Shown piece after piece: positions 27,590-37,628 of a stretch of 64,000 nt of DNA. Where the stretch lies: the NCBI RefSeq assembly GCF_020084865.1, contig NZ_CP071953.1:1054001-1118000 (forward strand), read 5' to 3'. The notes under the pieces are model-generated. The model was not told the origin of the DNA. It ran no database searches and saw nothing but the letters and a program-made list of their open reading frames with translations. The stretch is from Candidatus Kaistella beijingensis. Its GTDB lineage: Bacteria; Bacteroidota; Bacteroidia; Flavobacteriales; Weeksellaceae. Every line of letters starts with the position of its first letter. Within the stretch, counting starts at the first letter, position 1. The position numbers and the translations under genes were made by a program.

Positions 27590-28186
27590 TTAATTCATTT
27601 TCTCCTTAACAAAAGCCGAAACCGTAAGTCTGTGAACATTCAGGATTCTGCCGATAGCTGAATATGAAACTTTTTTGTCCAGAAGTTCTTTGATTTTTTT
27701 CTCCTGTCCTGTGAGTTTAGTTTTTGCTGATTTTCTTCCTTTTGGACGACCGAGAATGACGCCTTCTGCTTTTTTTCTTGCCAATGCTTCTTTGGTTCTT
27801 TGTGAAATGAGGTTGCGTTCTATTTCTGCGGATAAGCCAAAAGCAAATGCCAGAACTTTTGAATTGATGTCGCTTCCCAAACGGTAATTGTCTTTAATCG
27901 TCCAAACCTGAATATCTTTGTTCATACATTCATTCAAGATTCCCATAATCATTAAAAGGTTTCTTCCGAGACGAGAAAGTTCGGAACAAATGAGCACATC
28001 TCCTTTTTTCATTTTTTTGAGAAGCTTGCCGAGTTTTCTTTCTTCGAGTTTTTTGGAACCGGAAATGGTTTCTTCCAACCATTTATCTACCACCACAATA
28101 CTTTTTTCGCAAAACTGGTTAATTTCGTAGCGTTGGTTTTCTACTGTCTGTTTGTCTGTACTCACTCTAATGTAACCGTAAATCAT
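27590..28186 (-). CDS. Serine recombinase, DNA invertase type
   Basis: A 198-aa small serine recombinase: catalytic serine in YGYIRVSTDKQT, the LEERKLGKLLKKMKKGDVL region, SELSRLGRN, then helix E (SAEIERNLISQRTKEALARKKAEG) and a C-terminal HTH (SYSAIGRILNVHRLTVSAFV). It resembles the Bacteroidetes Mpi-type invertases. It lies 84 bp outside the left inverted repeat of the predicted invertible segment 28,270-29,993, so it is the likely enzyme for the specificity switch. Confidence 0.9.
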   Translation of the reverse strand: MIYGYIRVSTDKQTVENQRYEINQFCEKSIVVVDKWLEETISGSKKLEERKLGKLLKKMKKGDVLICSELSRLGRNLLMIMGILNECMNKDIQVWTIKDNYRLGSDINSKVLAFAFGLSAEIERNLISQRTKEALARKKAEGVILGRPKGRKSAKTKLTGQEKKIKELLDKKVSYSAIGRILNVHRLTVSAFVKEKMN

Positions 28187-28268
28187 AGTTTAATTTTTTA
28201 AAATTTAAGTGTTTAAAATAAACCAAAACCATATAAAATAAAACTTAGCTATTTTTTCATCAACGAAA

Positions 28269-29159
28269 ATGAGCGTTTTTGTTAGTCAGAACTCAGAAAA
28301 TTGTAGTTTTTCAAACAGCGAAAGTTGGGTGATTTTAAGTCCCATTGAGCAAAGTATTAAGCGAAAAATAGAAGCGGTTGGGAAACCTTTGAAAGATTGG
28401 GACATTAATATCTACAGGGGAATTCTTACTGGCTATAACGAAGCATTTATTATAGACGGAAAAAAGAAAAACCAATTGATTGCGGAAGATCCAAAATCAG
28501 CCGAAATAATACGACCGATTCTCAGAGGACGCGATATTAAGCGGTATACATATGATTTTGCTGATTTGTATATTATCACAACATTTCCCAGTCTAAAGAT
28601 TGACATTGAGCAGTATCCTGCGGTTAAGGCTCATTTATTAAGCTTTGGATATGACCGACTGAAACAAACGGGTCATACTGGCGCAAGGAAAAAGACTAAT
28701 AATCAATGGTTTGAAACACAAGATACGATAAGTTATAAGGACGATTTTTCTAAGCAGAAAATTATGTATCCTAATATGACCAAGTTTTTACCATTTTATT
28801 TTGATGAGAAAGGCTTTATGCAAAATGATAAATCGTTTATGATTACAGGCAAATATCTTTACTTTCTTACTGCATTTTTAAATTCATCACTGTTTAAATT
28901 TTGTTTCAAAGATAATTTTCCAGAATTACAAGGTGGAACAAGAGAATTACGGAAAATTTTTCTTGATAAGATACCGGTAATTACTGTTGATGAATTTCAA
29001 AATATTAGATTTAAAGATATGGTACTAAGTTGTCAGGATTTGGCTTCAAAAGGGATTTGTTCTAAAGATGTTGAAAGAGAACTAGATGAAGCCATATTTG
29101 ATCTTTATTCTTTAACAGAAGAAGAAAAACAAATTATCGGCTTCATTGAGATTCTATAA
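28269..29159 (+). pseudogene. Silent alternative target-recognition cassette of type IIG RM
   Basis: A 296-aa open frame resembling only the C-terminal 280 residues (TaqI_C-type specificity domain) of the type IIG enzyme on the opposite strand: SVFVSQNS, SESWVILS, GKPLKDWDI, RPILRGRDIKRY and YDFADL are shared, while the central recognition part (IEQYPAVKAHLLSFGY onward) differs. It has no methyltransferase or nuclease part, no own promoter and overlaps the 3' end of the RM gene tail-to-tail by 17 bp. It is intact, not decayed, and is best read as a stored alternative, not a dead gene. Confidence 0.8.
28270..28294 (+). repeat. Inversion site, left copy (25 bp)
   Basis: Begins TGAGCGTTTTTGTTAGTC and is the exact inverse complement of 29,969-29,993. 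It lies at the first codons of the silent cassette (ATG AGC GTT TTT), in the same frame as in the expressed gene (TTG AGC GTT TTT), so exchange preserves reading frame. Confidence 0.85.
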
Positions 29160-32100
29160 ATTCAATTTCTTCTGAGTTTAATTCAAACAGTTCATAAAAC
29201 ATATTGTTAAGCTTTTCTTCGCAAATATTATTTCCATTCATATTTTCAAAAATAATTTTTACTTTGTTTTCAAATTTTTCGGACGGTAATGGAGCTAATA
29301 TTGGCTCTATTGCTTGGACACTTATCAAAAGATCACCTGTGCCAGTTTTAGGTGAATCCTTTAACAAATAATTTCCGACTTTTGAATTTAAATAACAAAC
29401 TAAATATTCAATATGCTTTCCTGTAGCAAAACAAGTGCTATCTAGTGCAAAAGTTCCCTCATTATCAAATGAAAATCGAAGTATTGAGCCAACTCTCTTC
29501 CAAACTATTTTTGGTTTAGAAAAATCGTCCATATAAGCACAGTTTCTCAAATTGTAAGGGGTATCGCCTTTGTCAGAACGTTTCTCTAACTGAGGATAGA
29601 AAGAATCCAAATGTTTTTTAACTGCAGGATAATCCTCGATATTTACAGGCTTTATCCCTTTTTCCTTAATTCCATTGTGTGTATTAATTAACCATAAATC
29701 AGCGAAATCATATCCGTATCTTTTAATGTCCCTGCCACGTAAAATCGGTCGTATTATTTCTTCACTTTTAGGATCCTGTTCTATCAGTTCTTTTCGCTTT
29801 TCGCCCGTAATGATAAACGCATCATTAAAACCTGTTTTAATCCCATAATTAATTGAAATATCCCAATCTTTCAGGGGTTTGCCTACTTTCTCAATTTTGT
29901 CTTTAATCTGCCTTTCAATAGTTGAAAGAATCACCCAACTCTCAGAATTTCTGAAATCTGAAAAAACAGAGTTCTGACTAACAAAAACGCTCAAATTATT
30001 TAACAGCTTTTCTTTGATAATGCAAGCCTGTGTTTTGAACTGATTTTTTTGCTTTGCATACATCAGAATATTGGTATCCACAGTGGCAGTATCAAAAATT
30101 TGATTTCCAGAAAAATCAATCAGAGTTAACGGATTGGTTTGCTCCACAAAGAAACGGCGTAAGCTTTCGCCATAATTTGCTCGCATCCATTTGTTGGAAG
30201 TAATAAACATCAGCAGACCATTTTCACGCAGAATATTGTGCCCCTGTTCATAGAACAAACTGTAAATGTCGCCGGTTTTTGCGTAAGTTTTAAAACCAAC
30301 TTTTTCCAAAGTATCACTTTCTGCACCCATTTTCTGCAACTGGATATACGGCGGATTCCCAATAATCACATCAAAGCCAATAAAGTTGCCTTCATCATCC
30401 AACACTTCCGGAAACTCGAAGCGCCATTCGAAGGCGTTTTCATAAATCTTATTGCCTTTTACTTCCTCAATAACATCTTCAATTTTCTGAATTTTATTTT
30501 CAAGGTCTTTCTTGTCTTTTTGCTGTGCTTTGGTTAATTCCTCACCGAAAAGTTGTTCGCTACCATATTTTGTAAAGTACTCTCCGCGCAACAGATTAAG
30601 ATTTTTCATCTCTTTGCTGTTTCGGCTGATTTCAGTTCTGAAATCATTTTTCAGGGCAACCAAAAATTCTTCAAGACTTCTTTTCTTCTCCTTGCTTTCT
30701 GCTTCTTTGTAATCGCGAACTGCGTTTTTGTAATCTTCTACCGTAACTTTCGATTTCTTGAAGGCGGATTTTAAATCGCTGTCCAAAGGAAAACGACTTA
30801 TGAGTGAGTTTCCGTTTTTGATATTGATATCAATATTCGGTAAAGTTTCCAACTCATTTTCGGACTTGTAATAGGCGTTTTTTAGCAACTCAATCCACAA
30901 ACGTAGGCGACATATTTTAACGGAATTCGGGTTTAAATCGACACCAAAAAGACAATTTTCAATAATGTTCTGTTTCTCGTGAAAAAGGGTTTCCTGAACG
31001 CGCTGGCTTTCTTTGTTTTTGGGATTGTATCGGAACAGTTCGCTGGTGTTGGTATCTGTAATGACAATTTCATCACTTTCGACTTCAACATTATAGTCCT
31101 TGAACTTTTTACCGTTTTTATCCGCTAAAATCCCGAGATCATTTTTAATGGAAATCATCTCGTTCAGAACAGAAACTAAAAAGTGGCCGGAACCAACCGC
31201 AGGATCACAAATTTTGACTGAATTTACAATCTCATTGGCTTCTTTGACATCTTCAATTTTGTTGTAGAGTTGAGTAAAATCCTGACAATTCCAACCTTTT
31301 ACAGCGTTGAATTTTTCAATAACGGCTTTTCGCAACACTTCACGGCTCATATACATTGTAATAGAACCGGGCGTGTAGAAACTTCCATCTTTATAACCGT
31401 TGATTTTTTCGAAAATAAGTCCTAAAACCGAGGCGTTGATAATGGTTTTATTTTCTTCCTGAATTTCTTCCGTTCCTTCACTTGCAAAATCATAAGCATC
31501 CAAAAACTCGAACAAATATTGTAAGGTATTGAGTTCGCCTGTTCTTTTTTTACCTTGTCCATCTTTCAAAACGGTATTTCCCAACAACGGAATTTTTTTA
31601 TCATCCCGAAGATTGCTCATCATTAATGTGGTATGCTCCAATTCGGTCGGTTCGAACAAGGAACTGTTCAGATAAGGAACTTTTTCAAATGCTTTTCGGA
31701 CATCAGAATTCCGGTCCTCAAACTTTTTGGCCAAAACCTGAAAAAACAAAGTGTTGAGATCGTCATACTGGCGCAGTTTATCAAAGTTCAGAAACGCATA
31801 GGATTTATCACCACCGTGATAATTGATTAGCTGACCTTCCAATAATTTCAAAAATAAAACACGGTTAATCCAGGTAATATTGAGTTCCAACGCAATATTG
31901 AATAACTTCTCGTCCGTAGTTTCACCGTACAGAAACGATTTTTTAACACGATTTACTTTATCCAAAGTGTCGAGTTGAATGATCGTATCCTCAAGTAAAG
32001 ATCCGGAGTTTCTTTGTGCAGGTTTATTCCTTTCGATTAATCTTTTTCCGCCATCTTTGGTTTCAACAAGTCCGATAATATGCAGTAATTCGTTATAGAA

Positions 32101-32850
32101 ACTTTTGTCGAGAGTATTACTGTCATTGATAAAAGGAAGTTTGAGCAAATGCTGTGGCGATAATATTTTAAAAAGTGCAATCAGGTTATTATCGTCTTTC
32201 TTGCTGTCATTTCGGACAAATTTTTCAAAATCTTTCAGGTTGAAATGGGTATATTCTAAACTGTCAATTACGTCATCAATAGCAGGTTTTGCAATTTCTG
32301 AATAGAAAAAATCGGTTTTAATGCCTGATAGTCGTTTGCTTTCAAAATCCTCAAACTTCTTAATAAGTGCTTTGTCCTTCGCAAAGCAGTTTTCGAAAAT
32401 GTTTGCATCAAAAATGAACCATTCATAAACATTGGTCGCAACCAAATGTTTTACTTCCAAATTTTTATGAGTAATCCGTTCTCTCAGATAATACAGCAAC
32501 AGTTCTTGCAGTGCTTTTGAATTCAGTTTTTTTGAACTCACCATCTCAGAATTATTCCCAGACTGTTTTGTCTCAATAATCACCCCAACAGAACTGGAAT
32601 GTGCCTTGTCGTTGTGAATAACCAAATCGTTTCTGCCTTTGGTGTTGATATAATAATCGGGTGCAAAGCCAATGTTCTTCAGAAAATCTGAAATGAGATT
32701 CTTCTGAAACTCTTCAGATTCTTTTTCATTAATACCTTCTAAAAGCGTAATAAACCTACTTTTGAAGTTTTCAATTTCCTTGCGGTTTGGCTTTAATTTT
32801 AGAAATGATTTATTGAGGGACTGGCGTGGTGAAAGGTGAGATTTTGACAT
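29143..32850 (-). CDS. Type IIG restriction-modification enzyme (Eco57I-like)
   Basis: A 1,235-aa bifunctional enzyme. N-terminal nuclease: GRNDLVIHN (D75) and IIETK (E93, K95), a D...E-x-K site. A helical linker is followed by an adenine-N6 methyltransferase with SAM motif I CDPAVGSGHFL (about 548-560) and catalytic NPPY in VIIGNPPYIQL (about 832). The TaqI_C-type target-recognition domain starts at about 952, at the inversion site, and runs to the end. It should both cut and methylate. Third gene after RT and nuclease-like genes, 6 bp after the latter. Recognition sequence cannot be predicted. Confidence 0.9.
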   Translation of the reverse strand: MSKSHLSPRQSLNKSFLKLKPNRKEIENFKSRFITLLEGINEKESEEFQKNLISDFLKNIGFAPDYYINTKGRNDLVIHNDKAHSSSVGVIIETKQSGNNSEMVSSKKLNSKALQELLLYYLRERITHKNLEVKHLVATNVYEWFIFDANIFENCFAKDKALIKKFEDFESKRLSGIKTDFFYSEIAKPAIDDVIDSLEYTHFNLKDFEKFVRNDSKKDDNNLIALFKILSPQHLLKLPFINDSNTLDKSFYNELLHIIGLVETKDGGKRLIERNKPAQRNSGSLLEDTIIQLDTLDKVNRVKKSFLYGETTDEKLFNIALELNITWINRVLFLKLLEGQLINYHGGDKSYAFLNFDKLRQYDDLNTLFFQVLAKKFEDRNSDVRKAFEKVPYLNSSLFEPTELEHTTLMMSNLRDDKKIPLLGNTVLKDGQGKKRTGELNTLQYLFEFLDAYDFASEGTEEIQEENKTIINASVLGLIFEKINGYKDGSFYTPGSITMYMSREVLRKAVIEKFNAVKGWNCQDFTQLYNKIEDVKEANEIVNSVKICDPAVGSGHFLVSVLNEMISIKNDLGILADKNGKKFKDYNVEVESDEIVITDTNTSELFRYNPKNKESQRVQETLFHEKQNIIENCLFGVDLNPNSVKICRLRLWIELLKNAYYKSENELETLPNIDINIKNGNSLISRFPLDSDLKSAFKKSKVTVEDYKNAVRDYKEAESKEKKRSLEEFLVALKNDFRTEISRNSKEMKNLNLLRGEYFTKYGSEQLFGEELTKAQQKDKKDLENKIQKIEDVIEEVKGNKIYENAFEWRFEFPEVLDDEGNFIGFDVIIGNPPYIQLQKMGAESDTLEKVGFKTYAKTGDIYSLFYEQGHNILRENGLLMFITSNKWMRANYGESLRRFFVEQTNPLTLIDFSGNQIFDTATVDTNILMYAKQKNQFKTQACIIKEKLLNNLSVFVSQNSVFSDFRNSESWVILSTIERQIKDKIEKVGKPLKDWDISINYGIKTGFNDAFIITGEKRKELIEQDPKSEEIIRPILRGRDIKRYGYDFADLWLINTHNGIKEKGIKPVNIEDYPAVKKHLDSFYPQLEKRSDKGDTPYNLRNCAYMDDFSKPKIVWKRVGSILRFSFDNEGTFALDSTCFATGKHIEYLVCYLNSKVGNYLLKDSPKTGTGDLLISVQAIEPILAPLPSEKFENKVKIIFENMNGNNICEEKLNNMFYELFELNSEEIEFIESQ
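29969..29993 (-). repeat. Inversion site, right copy (25 bp)
   Basis: Exact inverted match to 28,270-28,294, inside the RM gene at about codons 953-960. Recombination between the two would swap the C-terminal recognition domains. Beyond 25 bp the similarity drops but continues in patches. Confidence 0.85.
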
Positions 32851-32856
32851 AGAGGA

Positions 32857-33888
32857 TTACAGTGAACTTATTTCTTTTTCAATCAGTTTATAGCGGTCTT
32901 TAACTTCTTCGCCTGAATAAAACTCAAGCAAATCTTCTTTTGTTAAGTTTCCATCTTTTAAAAATTTTAATAAATATTCCTGATTGAATTCCATTAACAG
33001 CATTGATTTTTCAAGCTGTTTGAGAATAGATTTATTGTTTTCAATATTGCTGTGAACGAGGTTTCGAATCAGCATAATTTGATCAATATCTTTGATGATC
33101 CGATTCACAATCATTGAAAGAATATCTTTATTCAGATCAACTTGTTTTGCATTCAGAATAATATCGCGAGCCAGCATATAAGCAATACCAAGATTAGAAT
33201 AGTCTCCTGCCTGCGAATTGATAACTGCTACAAATCCAACCTCCGGAATATAACCTACATTGTCAAAATTCTTTAAGATTGAATTGTCAATAAGGGAAAT
33301 ATCAAAAACGATAATTGCAGTATTGGTTCCGCGGTTCGCCTGAGCTTCAATCAACTGACTCCACGCGGTATCAGATTTACGAGTAAAAATGTCCTTGTTT
33401 TCAATCTCCCCAAACTTAATACTCTTATCAAACTTGCATTCTATGGCTATTCTTTGATTTGAATCTCCATTAATTTCACAAAGAATATCTCCTGTTTTGT
33501 TTTTAGCAAGATTACCTGCAGAATTACCGGTTAAATAAGCGCGATCTTTTAGTTTTTTATTTTGGAAAAACTCATTCAGATATTGCGCCACTTCATCTTC
33601 TGCCAAAGCACCTTTAATTGTTGATTTATAAAACAGTTCCTTTTTCATCTCGAAAATCATTTTCAGACTTTCAAGTTCAGTTCCGAGTTCGTTATTTGTC
33701 TTTGAAAGAAAGGCAGAAATACGGTCTTCCATCATAGCAAGAACACCAATGTAAATTGCACGAAGTAGTTTTTCATCTCTCTCTACTACCGGAAGACTAT
33801 CAAAATAATTGAAAACGATTTGGTTTTCGATTTCGAATTCTTTTATTTCAACTCGTTTGAGTTGTTGGTTTAGTGAAATATTTCCCAT
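32857..33888 (-). CDS. Restriction-endonuclease-like protein, partner of the RT gene
   Basis: A 343-aa mainly helical protein with a central D...E-x-K site: KTGDILCEING then RIAIECKF at about residues 132-152, in the layout of a PD-(D/E)XK nuclease core. Flanking helical regions (1-120, 245-343) resemble no family I can name. It starts 2 bp after the RT stop codon and ends 6 bp before the type IIG enzyme, so it is translated with both. It may be an effector of the RT system or an accessory of the restriction gene. Confidence 0.6.
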   Translation of the reverse strand: MGNISLNQQLKRVEIKEFEIENQIVFNYFDSLPVVERDEKLLRAIYIGVLAMMEDRISAFLSKTNNELGTELESLKMIFEMKKELFYKSTIKGALAEDEVAQYLNEFFQNKKLKDRAYLTGNSAGNLAKNKTGDILCEINGDSNQRIAIECKFDKSIKFGEIENKDIFTRKSDTAWSQLIEAQANRGTNTAIIVFDISLIDNSILKNFDNVGYIPEVGFVAVINSQAGDYSNLGIAYMLARDIILNAKQVDLNKDILSMIVNRIIKDIDQIMLIRNLVHSNIENNKSILKQLEKSMLLMEFNQEYLLKFLKDGNLTKEDLLEFYSGEEVKDRYKLIEKEISSL

Positions 33889-33890
33889 AA

Positions 33891-35552
33891 TTAATTAGTA
33901 TTTAATTGAAAGTAGTAGCTGAAAGGTGCCCCATAATATTTAGTTTCATTTGTTGCCAATACTTTCCTATTTTTATCTGGACGATTATTTTTATTCATAT
34001 TTTTTATTATGCGGTCCAATCTTGCAAGTTGTTTGCCTCTTTTTTTGTCCAAATGCCTTAATTGATATTTTACATTATCGTTTTGCTTGAGGACACGGAA
34101 CCCTGAAGACCAGCACATTTGTCCTTCCTTCTTTGGATTGAAAATACTTTTTCTGCCTACGGACATTGATAATAATCTCTGTGTAATCCTATATTTTATT
34201 GCACGTTCAGAAACTTTAAACTTTTTGTTAGTTTTTACGTATTCAATAATTTTATCTGTTTCCTTTAATTGTTTTAATATTTCATTTTTAATTGATGACT
34301 TACGGACCCTAATCTTCAAATCAAACTTAATTTGATAGCCAACAAATGAAAGCCAGGGGACATTCTTATTAGATAAAGCAGGATCTCCCCATTTATAGGA
34401 AGACTTTGATTTCGATTTCCAAAAATCCTTATCATAATACTTAATAGTAGTGAAATTATGATGCAAAAGTTTAATATCTTTAAGTGCAGTGCCGTAAACA
34501 TTTAATATTTCTTGTGAAATTTTCTTTTTGGTATGTATCAAAACCATATCGTCGCAGAATCTGGCGTAAAACAAATTTTTGTCATCATATGACAAAACTT
34601 TCTTATCAACGTAATCCATTAATAAATTTGCAATAAAACAGGAAATTGCACCACCTTGAGGCACTCCTATTTCCTCTTTTGAAGGATCAGATTGAATATC
34701 TCTGAGTTCTATTTCATCAACCCATCCAAATTCACAATCTTTTCCAAGATTAATACTTAGTACATCCTTATTAAAACTATAACACTTTAAATAAGATTCA
34801 AATAAATCTAAAGCCCGCTGGTTTATTATTGTACCATTACGCTTTAGTATAGAAACTTTATCATAAAAGTGTGACCTAACTACAGCATGATTGACGCAGT
34901 CATAGAACTTCTTTATATCACATTCAGCAACAAAAAGGTTTTTCTTGTTATTTTTCCTTTTGAACTCAATAATATCTTCCACAGCCCCATGATGAGAAAA
35001 TGACTTTCCTACAGAGGCTCGAGAACGAAATGCATAAGAACAATTTTCAAAAGTTCTATCGAAATGATACGTGAGATATTTATTTAATTGACTAATTATT
35101 ATTCTATCAACATATTCAAAATGAGCGATTGGACGAAATACTTTTATACCATTTTTTTCTTCTTTAAAGTGGCTAATAATTTTTGGTTTTGGTATTGAAT
35201 ATGAAGAACTTAATGCTTTTGAAATTATCTCGTCAATAAATCTTAGAAGCTTAGATTGCCAACCAGTAGAGGAAAATTTAGTTAATCTTTTAGTGGAAAG
35301 CAAAACTGTTCTTTCCAATTGTTCAGAATTTATCTGTGTCGCATTTTTACTAGACCTTTCTGATTTTCTCAGTCTTATCCACGTATTCCTTGGTGGAAAT
35401 ATCTCATATAATTCGTGTTGTTTAGCATGTGAACTTTTCACTAAAATGTTTTTATAGAACTGTCTATCATGCTCTTTTTTTGCAAGAAGGCATCTTTTCT
35501 TACACAAAATTTTTAACAATTCTCTTCTCGTAAACAAATATTCTAGTTCCAT
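33891..35552 (-). CDS. Divergent reverse transcriptase (UG/Abi or DRT type)
   Basis: A 553-aa protein with RT motifs in order: RPIAHFEYVDRIIISQL (RT1-2 region), FVAECDIKKFYDCVNH (motif A, about 207-222), EIGVPQGGAISCFIANLLMD (motif B), YARFCDDMVLI (motif C, with FCDD in place of YADD, about 328-338), and FVGYQI (motif E). The first 110 residues and the basic last 130 are unlike group II intron maturases or retron RTs: no VTG and no NAxxH motif was seen, and no HNH or maturase domain. This fits the unknown-group/defence-associated RT set. A structured RNA lies just upstream; a nuclease-like gene just downstream. Confidence 0.85.
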   Translation of the reverse strand: MELEYLFTRRELLKILCKKRCLLAKKEHDRQFYKNILVKSSHAKQHELYEIFPPRNTWIRLRKSERSSKNATQINSEQLERTVLLSTKRLTKFSSTGWQSKLLRFIDEIISKALSSSYSIPKPKIISHFKEEKNGIKVFRPIAHFEYVDRIIISQLNKYLTYHFDRTFENCSYAFRSRASVGKSFSHHGAVEDIIEFKRKNNKKNLFVAECDIKKFYDCVNHAVVRSHFYDKVSILKRNGTIINQRALDLFESYLKCYSFNKDVLSINLGKDCEFGWVDEIELRDIQSDPSKEEIGVPQGGAISCFIANLLMDYVDKKVLSYDDKNLFYARFCDDMVLIHTKKKISQEILNVYGTALKDIKLLHHNFTTIKYYDKDFWKSKSKSSYKWGDPALSNKNVPWLSFVGYQIKFDLKIRVRKSSIKNEILKQLKETDKIIEYVKTNKKFKVSERAIKYRITQRLLSMSVGRKSIFNPKKEGQMCWSSGFRVLKQNDNVKYQLRHLDKKRGKQLARLDRIIKNMNKNNRPDKNRKVLATNETKYYGAPFSYYFQLNTN

Positions 35553-35560
35553 AAAAAATA

Positions 35561-35717
35561 GATTAGCCCCGGCGCGGATTGCTCCGTAAATGAATCGAAT
35601 GTACGTTCCAAATTATTATATTTGTTATGGAAAATACAATAACAACAGGGAGTAGTGTAAACTTTGTCATACTTATAACTACCCTTCAACAGCACCTAGT
35701 GCTTAACAGGGCTAATC
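35561..35717 (-). ncRNA. Structured RNA upstream of the RT gene
   Basis: The 157 nt fills the gap between the OLD nuclease stop (3 nt away) and the RT start (8 nt away). Its ends pair perfectly over 9 bp (GATTAGCCC at 35,709-35,717 with GGGCTAATC at 35,561-35,569, read on the minus strand). Inside, in transcript order, are four hairpins: AGCAC-TAG-GTGCT (35,691-35,703), GGGTAGT with ACTACTC (35,650-35,684, one G-U), TTGTTAT with ATAACAA (35,622-35,645), and CGGA-GCAA-TCCG (35,575-35,586), a GNRA tetraloop. The wobble pair is legal only on the minus strand. The layout resembles retron msr-msd and DRT RNAs, whose terminal inverted repeats flank the template. Confidence 0.7.
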
Positions 35718-35720
35718 GTT

Positions 35721-37628
35721 TTATTCTGATAATTTTTTGAATGCTTCTATTATTTTGGATGGGATCTGATTTTTCTCTTTGAAGTTTTTCAGGATGAATT
35801 CTGCAGAATCTTTACCCTTGTCAGGTATAAGTTTTAATGAATCAGCTTCGCCATTTGTGGTTATATAATTTTGACGAATTTTAGCTTTCAGTTTTTTGTA
35901 AAATTTTTCATTTGAATTACATTTAACATTCGGAATATCTCTTTTAATAGATTCTATTTCGGCAACTGTAACAATTTCTTTATTATAAAATTCATTAATA
36001 TTATCGTACCAAATTTGAGTTTCAATACTATCTTCAATGTCTTGCATACCTACAAAAAACATGCTTGGGCTTTTAGCGGCTTCACCAATTTCATAACTCA
36101 TGTCGTTATCAAATAGATACACAATCTTGTCTTCTGTTTTTTGGAAACCTTTCATAACATTATCGATTATCTTCTTATTCTCCTGCCACTTATCTTTTCC
36201 TCCAATGTTTATCAATTGAATATTATCTTCTAAGATAGTTTTTCCAAAGTACAATTTATATAACTCTGGAATTAAATATTGTTCAGTATCACCCTCTACG
36301 ACGAGAAACTTATCAAAGAATAAAAAATCACTGTTTTTAACATTTAAACTACTAAAAACAGAGTCTATATTTTCACATTGATCAGAATACGAATAGCCAG
36401 ATTGATCTTTTGCTATACTTTTTATATTGTCAATTTTTGATTTATCAATAAAAATCGTAGAATGTGTACTTACAAAAACTTGAACATTAGACTTTGATAA
36501 TGAGTGTAATATATCAAAAAATTCTCTCTGAGCTCCAGGATAAAGATGAGTTTCTGGTTCATCAAATGCCCAAATAAACTCCTTGAAATTTTGCTCAGTT
36601 ACTGTTTTGGCTTTTGATTTAATTAGTGAAAACCATATCTTTCTTTTCAAACCCTCTCCCTGATTTTCAAGGTGTATTAATCCATCACTCGAAAATTTTC
36701 TAACCATAATATCAGATATTTTCTCTTTTACATCAAAAAACACTCTTGTTTCAATTGTTTCTATTTCTGGAGCTACTTCCGCTATCGTATCTTTTAATTC
36801 TGCAAATTTTTCATTGATTTTCATTTCAGCTTCTAAAGCTTTTGAAATTGCCGAATTCTTAATATCAGATATAAATGGATCAATATATTCTTTCATTAAA
36901 CTTCCCGCTAGATTATTTATATCTTCAAATGAGCAATTCCAATCAAAATATTTAAATACAGGCAAAATTTCAGTATCATTTTTTGCGGGCTTATACAAAG
37001 ACCAAACTTTCGATAATTCAACCTTGTTATAAAATGCTCTTAGTTTTTCCAAATTTGAAAAGCGTCCTTTGCCATTCTCATTACTAATATCTTCTGAAGA
37101 TACAGAATGTTCCCTTAATATTTTATTAAGATCTGTTGATGTTTTGCTCCATAATTCATCCTTTCCTGATGAATCAAAGGTAGAAATGTAAGTGCTAACT
37201 GTGTTTCCGTCAAAATTCTTAGAAATCCATAATTCAAGATCGCTGTTATTTTCCAAAGACCATGATAAATTAGTTGATATATCTAAAGACTGAATTCTTT
37301 CAAGTTCTTCTTCATTATAAACAAGTTTTCCTAATATTATCGTTTCATTCTCATTATATTCTAATCCATCGGGGAGATTATTTTCAGCAAGAAGTTTATT
37401 AAAGTCTTCTAACGACAATTTTGAATTAGAAAGATCACTTTTATTATTTCCTTCTTGCAAAGAGTTATATTTAGGTTTTTCACCTAAAAGTAAATCAATA
37501 GCCTGAAGAATTGTAGATTTTCCACAATCGTTTAATCCAATGAAAATATTTGGGTCATTATCTTTTAGTTCAAGTTGTAAAATTTTACAACTTCTATAAT
37601 TCACGATTATTAGTTTTTGCAAATACAT
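35721..37628 (-). CDS. OLD-family ATP-dependent nuclease (AAA ATPase + TOPRIM)
   Basis: A 635-aa protein: N-terminal ATPase with Walker A GLNDCGKST (about 32-40), the signature region near QGEGLKRKIWFSL, Walker B FIWAFDEPETHLYP and the switch histidine region STHSTIF; then a TOPRIM domain with VVEGDTEQYLIPELY and VYLFDNDM, and a helical C-terminus. This is the overcoming-lysogenization-defect class known in antiphage nucleases such as GajA. There is no GajB-type helicase next to it; instead an RNA and an RT follow, an association reported for a class of OLD proteins. Divergent from the AlbA-type gene, 98 bp apart. Confidence 0.9.
   Translation of the reverse strand: MYLQKLIIVNYRSCKILQLELKDNDPNIFIGLNDCGKSTILQAIDLLLGEKPKYNSLQEGNNKSDLSNSKLSLEDFNKLLAENNLPDGLEYNENETIILGKLVYNEEELERIQSLDISTNLSWSLENNSDLELWISKNFDGNTVSTYISTFDSSGKDELWSKTSTDLNKILREHSVSSEDISNENGKGRFSNLEKLRAFYNKVELSKVWSLYKPAKNDTEILPVFKYFDWNCSFEDINNLAGSLMKEYIDPFISDIKNSAISKALEAEMKINEKFAELKDTIAEVAPEIETIETRVFFDVKEKISDIMVRKFSSDGLIHLENQGEGLKRKIWFSLIKSKAKTVTEQNFKEFIWAFDEPETHLYPGAQREFFDILHSLSKSNVQVFVSTHSTIFIDKSKIDNIKSIAKDQSGYSYSDQCENIDSVFSSLNVKNSDFLFFDKFLVVEGDTEQYLIPELYKLYFGKTILEDNIQLINIGGKDKWQENKKIIDNVMKGFQKTEDKIVYLFDNDMSYEIGEAAKSPSMFFVGMQDIEDSIETQIWYDNINEFYNKEIVTVAEIESIKRDIPNVKCNSNEKFYKKLKAKIRQNYITTNGEADSLKLIPDKGKDSAEFILKNFKEKNQIPSKIIEAFKKLSE

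Follow-up and report, generated by a model that had tools for sequence, protein, structure and literature searches.

We analysed a 64,000-nucleotide stretch of the Candidatus Kaistella beijingensis genome (NZ_CP071953.1, positions 1,054,001 to 1,118,000; this whole stretch is hereafter the window, and positions are given in its coordinates), in which the gap between an OLD-family gene and a reverse transcriptase (RT) gene of family UG39 holds a structured RNA. The genes lie on the minus strand in the order OLD-family gene (35721-37628), gap, RT (33891-35552), a gene for a 343-amino-acid (aa) protein (32857-33888) and a type IIG restriction-methylase gene (29143-32850). The initial annotation had described the gap as 157 nt; it exists, but is slightly wider, extending from 35553 to 35720 (168 nt), and the match of our covariance model to the RNA overlaps, at its 5' edge, the last codons of the OLD gene. 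The parts of the RNA and its RT are the following.

35555..35727, minus strand: conserved structured RNA, extent of the covariance-model match; fold z -3.39, nine-locus covariation
35707..35717, minus strand: closing stem, 5' strand, pairing with 35561-35571 over 11 bp; 35707-35712 is the inner stem of the model, helix 2 of the nine-row alignment, and 35713-35717 a window-specific continuation
35691..35703, minus strand: hairpin AGCAC-UAG-GUGCU of the single-sequence minimum free energy (MFE) fold
35647..35685, minus strand: branched stem of the middle part, in the MFE fold only and not aligned pair by pair with model helix 4
35606..35632, minus strand: short UUCC/GGAA stem around the most conserved segment (CAUAA..AUA.AA.AAUUU), from invariant alignment columns; helix 6 of the nine-row alignment
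35592..35600, minus strand: template-like direct repeat ATTC-G-ATTC, period 5, with A at 35597-35600 and A' at 35592-35595; ATTCGATT in 9/9 loci
35575..35586, minus strand: hairpin CGGA-GCAA-UCCG, 3' of the template-like loop, in the MFE fold; helix 7 of the nine-row alignment
35561..35571, minus strand: closing stem, 3' strand, with a U run between it and the RT start codon; closing stems occur here in 9/9 loci
33891..35552, minus strand: RT of 553 aa, family RT_UG39 (PADLOC PDLC03778), active site FCDD, C-terminal tail with FSY

Read on the RT strand, the gap folds with an MFE of -46.1 kcal/mol against a shuffle mean of -33.2 (z -3.39; 1/200 shuffles as low), and the plus strand gives a z of -2.70 (2/200 shuffles as low). 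The ends pair, as initially annotated, although over 11 bp (nine Watson-Crick pairs, one U-G wobble and one G-C) rather than nine perfect ones; the wobble is indeed legal only on the RT strand, since it would be A-C on the opposite one, and the GCAA tetraloop hairpin lies at 35575-35586. The other internal hairpins that had been described are present in the single-sequence fold of the window, but not all are common to its relatives. Its A/U-rich 12-pair hairpin (35612-35643) overlaps and excludes the UUCC/GGAA stem of the model, which lies directly 5' of the template-like loop and is absent from the window's own MFE fold, and at the place of the hairpin at 35691-35703 other loci carry, by eye, one of different sequence, for which the model alignment gives no pair-by-pair match. 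In that alignment the window forms 6/6 pairs of the inner closing stem, 5/5 of the UUCC/GGAA stem and 3/4 modelled pairs of the GCAA hairpin; the outer stem is weak there (4/6 pairs, 2/6 non-standard), and window-specific pairs prolong the closing stem instead.

A genome scan for relatives kept 80 of 110 confirmed loci, and five and eight loci, respectively, came from searches of the phylum and of the order (395 genomes each), the window included in both. On a tree of 77 of the 85 RTs (8 duplicates or broken ones were left out), the window falls into clade A, whose nine rows (window, L007, L008; L009, L010, L011, L031; L012, L013) are joined with a support of 100 in the SH-like approximate likelihood-ratio test (SH-aLRT); 57 of the remaining rows make up clade B and 11 are outer rows. 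All nine clade-A loci share a common plan, running 5' to 3' from the closing stem or stems through a hairpin, a branched middle and a short UUCC/GGAA-type stem with a nearly invariant loop to ATTCGATT, a CGG..CCG hairpin, the return strands, a U-rich end and the RT start. The closing stems vary between subgroups yet stay complementary (GGATACACC/GGTGTATCC, AAATGCC/GGCATTT, AAAAGTAGC/GCTACTTTT), and those of the window (GATTAGCCC/GGGCTAATC) extend the inner stem and do not match the outer one. Folded singly, the nine RNAs reach z values of -2.1 to -8.7, with 6-20 pairs joining both ends, and a duplex test of the closing stem gave p <=0.02 in six of them and 0.07-0.30 in the other three; clade-B rows were left out of this test because the choice of start codon is unreliable for many.

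A covariance model (R1) built from L009, L010, L011 and L031 alone, without the window, found all five held-out loci, with E-values that are to be read as rough (L008, 1.3e-11; L007, 3.2e-10; L013, 9e-10; window, 8.7e-7; L012, 3.1e-6); each match was full length and ended <=25 nt before the RT start. Against 11 clade-B and outer loci the best E was 3.8, and the clade-B RNAs were not found. Among the 395 genomes of the order, R1 hit the locus of the window and, weakly, one other site (G566, 23.2 bits, E 0.0057); the latter has a sigma-70-type gene as neighbour, the 6 kb inspected contain no RT, and we attribute it to chance. A pattern match in a viral contig (L088), with neither the loop nor an RT match, was likewise set aside, and the IMG/VR contig L087 has an RT match of 63 residues only. 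The genome G364, which carries a locus resembling L013, has a single R1 match, directly before its RT. The UG39 RT of L013 (5989-7485, Balneolota) ends before the conserved C-terminal tail, yet its RNA matches R1 at full length; the G364 locus is probably identical to it, and its RT likewise lacks the tail.

Across the nine aligned rows, standard pairs fill 97.2% of 287 cells, and changes on both sides occur in 24 of 35 pairs, among them 6/6 pairs of the outer stem and 5/6 of the inner stem, where 100% of cells are paired. None of 500 shuffles reached any of these measures, and sliding the partners lowered pairing to 30-45%. Gaps interrupt the middle helices of L012, L008 and the window. MAFFT alignments, which misplace the closing stem, were left out of the pair counts. 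The RNA therefore passes the check that the initial annotation had proposed, a covariance model with covariation in homologous loci (24/35 pairs, 0/500 shuffles), and we are practically certain that the gap holds a real, conserved structured RNA on the RT strand. At the window RNA every Rfam 15 family stays below its gathering score; a search of five clade-A and four clade-B loci returned only two tRNAs, elsewhere in the loci, and the L009 RNA had no match at E 1.

The RT matches PADLOC RT_UG39 (PDLC03778) over residues 3-551 with 582 bits and an E-value of 3.1e-175, the next best profile standing at 1.3e-22. Its motifs are as the initial annotation described, with FCDD present and VTG and NAxxH absent, but the RT is not unclassified, and FCDD or YCDD is usual in this family (56 and 29 of the 85 locus RTs, respectively). 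Relatives number 834 of 7997 scored candidates at 1e-30, and roughly 30 RTs on metagenome contigs fall at 50-59% identity; at 1e-20, one was found among 72,556 plasmid records and none among 50,697 phage records. The RT may belong with the Class 2 UG and defence-associated RTs (DRTs): after UG39 and a general RT profile, Drt9, UG17 (60 bits), Drt2 and Drt3a lead the profiles, and DRT9 is the best Foldseek match to an AlphaFold2 model with a predicted local distance difference test score of 84. A conserved structured RNA stands beside the RT. The RTs nearest by profile or fold (Drt9, UG17/DRT10 and Drt2; DRT9) copy a cis-encoded RNA, and the RNA described here very probably partners the adjacent RT.

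Near the C-terminus, [FY]SY is present in 36/36 aligned RTs, with Y540, S545 and Y546 invariant there. DRT9 primes from C-terminal tyrosines and DRT10 from a C-terminal serine or tyrosine. By analogy with these, UG39 RTs would most likely prime from a Ser/Tyr of the tail.

The segment ATTCGATT lies, in 9/9 clade-A loci, in a single-stranded loop between the UUCC/GGAA stem and the last hairpin, where a poly-U template is absent. The loop repeat has a period of 5, forms a tract of up to 14 nt and lies just after a stem. These tracts extend to different lengths and in different directions: ATTCGATTCGATTC in L007 and L008, TCGATTCGATTCGA in L010, TCGATTCGATTC in L009 and L011, CGATTCGATTC in L031, and TCGATTCGATT in L012 and L013. 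With loop ends set by hand, the repeat reaches a shuffle p <=0.0083 in the eight non-window loci. The neighbouring conserved loop, that of the AUAAAGAUACAACAA stem-loop, has no significant repeat in the 7 of 9 loci in which it was tested. In DRT10, an A-B-A' repeat after a stable stem-loop is required, loss of B is tolerated, and an A of 2-4 nt works in the described systems (PMC12632851); this rule applied to our loop predicts the product 5'-(CGAAT)n-3'. The loop repeat thus resembles the DRT10 template, and a (CGAAT)n complementary DNA (cDNA) is predicted for clade A only, the boldest step of our interpretation. That the RNA would serve as a template for the RT is reasonably likely; that a 5-nt repeat would be written from this particular loop is a closer call, to which we lean slightly against committing.

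Clade B offers a comparison. An upstream open reading frame (ORF) is present in 80 loci, and in 58 of these, which include a few duplicates, it belongs to a single blastp cluster, of 324-375 aa except for three partial members, with eight on the opposite strand. All three members tested match BT4734-like_N and two also PriCT_2, for which reason we call the family primase-like; examples of its genes are L014:4830-5840, L045:4841-5830 and L061:4691-5707. In 17 loci of one sub-branch, RNAalifold proposes GGGGTTCC/GGAACCCC as closing stem; in 10/23 pairs both sides have changed with pairing kept, although the covariation energy term is small. The loop (GTCAGTAT) differs from that of clade A. Of 53 clade-B loci given to an A-B-A' test, 19 without the core motif were dropped and 34 scored; p <=0.05 was reached in 4/34, some of them misplaced, and <=0.01 in one (L040, TATCAG repeated), so that we rejected the pattern for this clade. 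The loop of L040 (5827-5993) holds GTATCAGTATCAGTATCA and is 6 nt, or one unit, longer than those of L022 and L084, to which it is closely related, and 7 longer than that of L026.

Our preferred reading, held with moderate confidence, is that the RNA would be a dedicated partner and template of the UG39 RT in a ribonucleoprotein that writes repeat DNA in phage defence. RNA and RT would form a complex like those of DRT9 and DRT10, the RNA providing a closed multibranch scaffold, with the central single-stranded loop as template. The RT would prime from a Ser/Tyr of its C-terminal tail, copy ATTCG, slip back via the A-A' homology and repeat, and the product would be a long (CGAAT)n single-stranded DNA active in phage defence. 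The RT-templating RNA of a defence system first proposed for this gap is thereby upheld as to a structured RNA on the RT strand, among defence genes, beside an RT nearest to DRTs that use non-coding RNAs. Our analysis shows that the RNA is conserved, structured and linked to the RT, to which family and fold the RT belongs, and that the loop repeat is invariant, whereas binding of the RNA by the RT, templating, protein priming, the repeat product and the role in defence are inferred. More speculatively, clade-A UG39 RTs may be bacterial telomerase-like enzymes with a 5-nt A-B-A' template (B being one nucleotide or none), making (CGAAT)n from a C-terminal Tyr/Ser, and the primase-like protein of clade B may have been recruited beside the RT, perhaps for the second strand, in which case the two genes would parallel DRT3 or the DRT7 RT-primase fusion; we offer this as a tentative extension.

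Several points weigh against the preferred reading, which is built on sequence and predicted structure. The window's repeat is short, only ATTC-G-ATTC, with a shuffle p of 0.22, and since the repeat is shared by descent, the nine loci amount to about three independent lineages. The most conserved segment is the UUUUCCAUAAAGAUACAACAAUUUGGAA stem-loop and not the repeat, so the template could be elsewhere. Clade-B loops show no general A-B-A' enrichment and do not support a general model there. [FY]SY is found in 63/85 locus RTs, several others being cut short or masked. The model structure guided the nine-row alignment, which also contains the four loci from which R1 was built. A scan for one promoter type gave no promoter-like site on the RNA's strand and a total no higher than in shuffles.

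Some of these points feed the strongest rival, in which the RNA partners the RT but either serves as a long rolling template yielding a gene, in the manner of DRT2, or is copied outside the repeat, for instance in the conserved AUAAAGAUACAACAA loop, with ATTCG acting as a binding element. We consider this unlikely, if worth keeping in mind: the primacy of AUAAAGAUACAACAA in conservation, the non-significant repeat of the window (p 0.22) and the lack of general enrichment in clade B all fit it, but the longest stop-free RNA-sense frames of the nine RNAs, read linearly, span 16-75 codons with none open throughout in all, and the AUAAAGAUACAACAA loop lacks a significant repeat in the 7 of 9 loci noted above. 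Still less probable is that the RNA acts in cis, as a leader through which attenuation, stability or translation of the RT mRNA is controlled, without being used by the RT protein. In 9/9 loci the RNA does end no more than about 25 nt from the RT start codon, with a U-rich stretch before the AUG, but no intrinsic-terminator-like site was found, the closing stem of the whole molecule, the inner hairpins and the invariant single-stranded core resemble DRT9 and DRT10 RNAs rather than a short leader, and the closest RTs by profile and fold work with RNAs encoded in cis. OLD-type retron effectors exist, and VTG and NAxxH motifs define retron RTs. A retron with the RNA as msr-msd and OLD as effector is nevertheless highly improbable, because, although the RNA lies beside an RT and an OLD gene and Retron-Eco2 has a Toprim effector (PMC12405507), the RT scores 582 bits with RT_UG39 and <=35 with retron profiles, lacks both motifs, and has an OLD-like gene directly upstream in only 4/80 loci.

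The RNA-RT unit is flanked by two genes whose association with it differs among loci.

35721..37628, minus strand: OLD-family ATPase/TOPRIM gene, upstream neighbour and possible component, with AAA_15 and OLD-like_TOPRIM matches
32857..33888, minus strand: 343-aa gene, separated from the RT by 2 nt, with a weak PDDEXK likeness; linked in the window, L007 and L008, and common elsewhere

The unit shared by all nine clade-A loci is the RNA plus the RT. In both L007 and L008, the block of OLD, RNA-RT and 343-aa genes is flanked by hsdM and hsdS on its upstream side and by hsdR on its downstream side, and L013 adjoins PglZ and BrxL of BREX; we judge it likely that the RNA-RT system acts in defence. 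OLD as a component of the system is not supported, and we rejected it as a fixed partner: the window OLD is only distantly similar to those of L007 and L008 (blastp, 32% over 80 aa and 23% over 256 aa; no tblastn match at 1e-5), which are 63% identical to each other, and an OLD-like gene stands directly upstream in the said 4 of the 80 loci with an upstream ORF. Within clade A such a gene lies directly upstream in 4/9 loci (window, L007, L008, L012), so OLD may have a looser role. The 343-aa protein is 70-71% identical to its L007/L008 copies and has no Pfam or PADLOC match in the window, the L007 copy matching PDDEXK_15 below the cut-off. Its homologues number 2711 at E 1e-10 or better (against 834 for the RT at 1e-30, the limits differing), and in L100 it neighbours SIR2-like and HerA-like genes, the 19 kb inspected containing no RT; we therefore rejected it as a dedicated RT partner. 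This very common and highly conserved family (window 32857-33888; L007:7672-8703; L100:8823-9848) neighbours RTs, type I and type IIG restriction systems, and SIR2-like with HerA.

Further downstream, at 27590-29993, a resolvase-family recombinase gene (27590-28186) adjoins a TaqI_C specificity copy that is inverted and incomplete (28269-29159). An inverted repeat of 25 bp without mismatches (28270-28294 / 29969-29993) is shared with the type IIG enzyme; the arrangement looks like restriction specificity switched by DNA inversion.

Our literature search returned no study naming UG39 together with reverse transcriptase and none on DRT11, and no UG39 RNA, the 2022 UG/Abi classification, which may mention such an RNA, not being covered. 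A 2026 overview tabulates DRT1-9 and the DRT7 RT-primase fusion (PMC13213688). An RT with a cis-encoded RNA in defence is of a known kind; the RNA family and the predicted 5-nt repeat are new as far as checked. The DRT10 authors note that most UG systems have uncharacterised templates, and they propose telomerase-like repeat addition as a possible common principle of all or part of the UG RTs (PMC12632851). UG39 offers a direct test of this idea: the RNA, its consensus structure and the DNA product predicted from it are now specified for a little-studied RT group, and nature supplies nine variant RNAs, with repeat tracts of different length and register.

Compared with known systems, retrons with OLD/TOPRIM effectors resemble the locus in bringing RNA, RT and an OLD-like gene together, but the window RT is not a retron RT and OLD is not conserved with it. 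DRT2 and DRT3a are Class 2 type RTs with a cis-encoded RNA and give significant profile matches, but the window RT falls far below their cut-offs (57.9 vs 390; 48 vs 200), its genome has no second RT, and no long open template was seen. DRT9 (UG28) is the closest solved fold and shares the RT and RNA core, a conserved loop and conserved C-terminal tyrosines, whereas the UG39 loop has no poly-U. DRT10 (UG17) differs in several respects: UG17 scores 60 bits against 582 for UG39 with the window RT, a SLATT gene is not next to that RT (OLD family upstream, 343-aa protein downstream), the clade-A RNAs measure 169-227 nt as cut here against 137 nt, and the RT has 553 aa against 456. Its template-like loop is variable whereas that of UG39 is conserved, the UG39 cDNA is a prediction, and the A-B-A' pattern, present in 9/9 clade-A loops, is weak in the window (p 0.22) and not enriched in clade B. 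The two systems are alike in having a structured cis-encoded RNA upstream of the RT, a large closed stem with smaller stem-loops, and a template-like repeat in the central loop after a stem-loop, and UG17 is among the best profile matches of the window RT.
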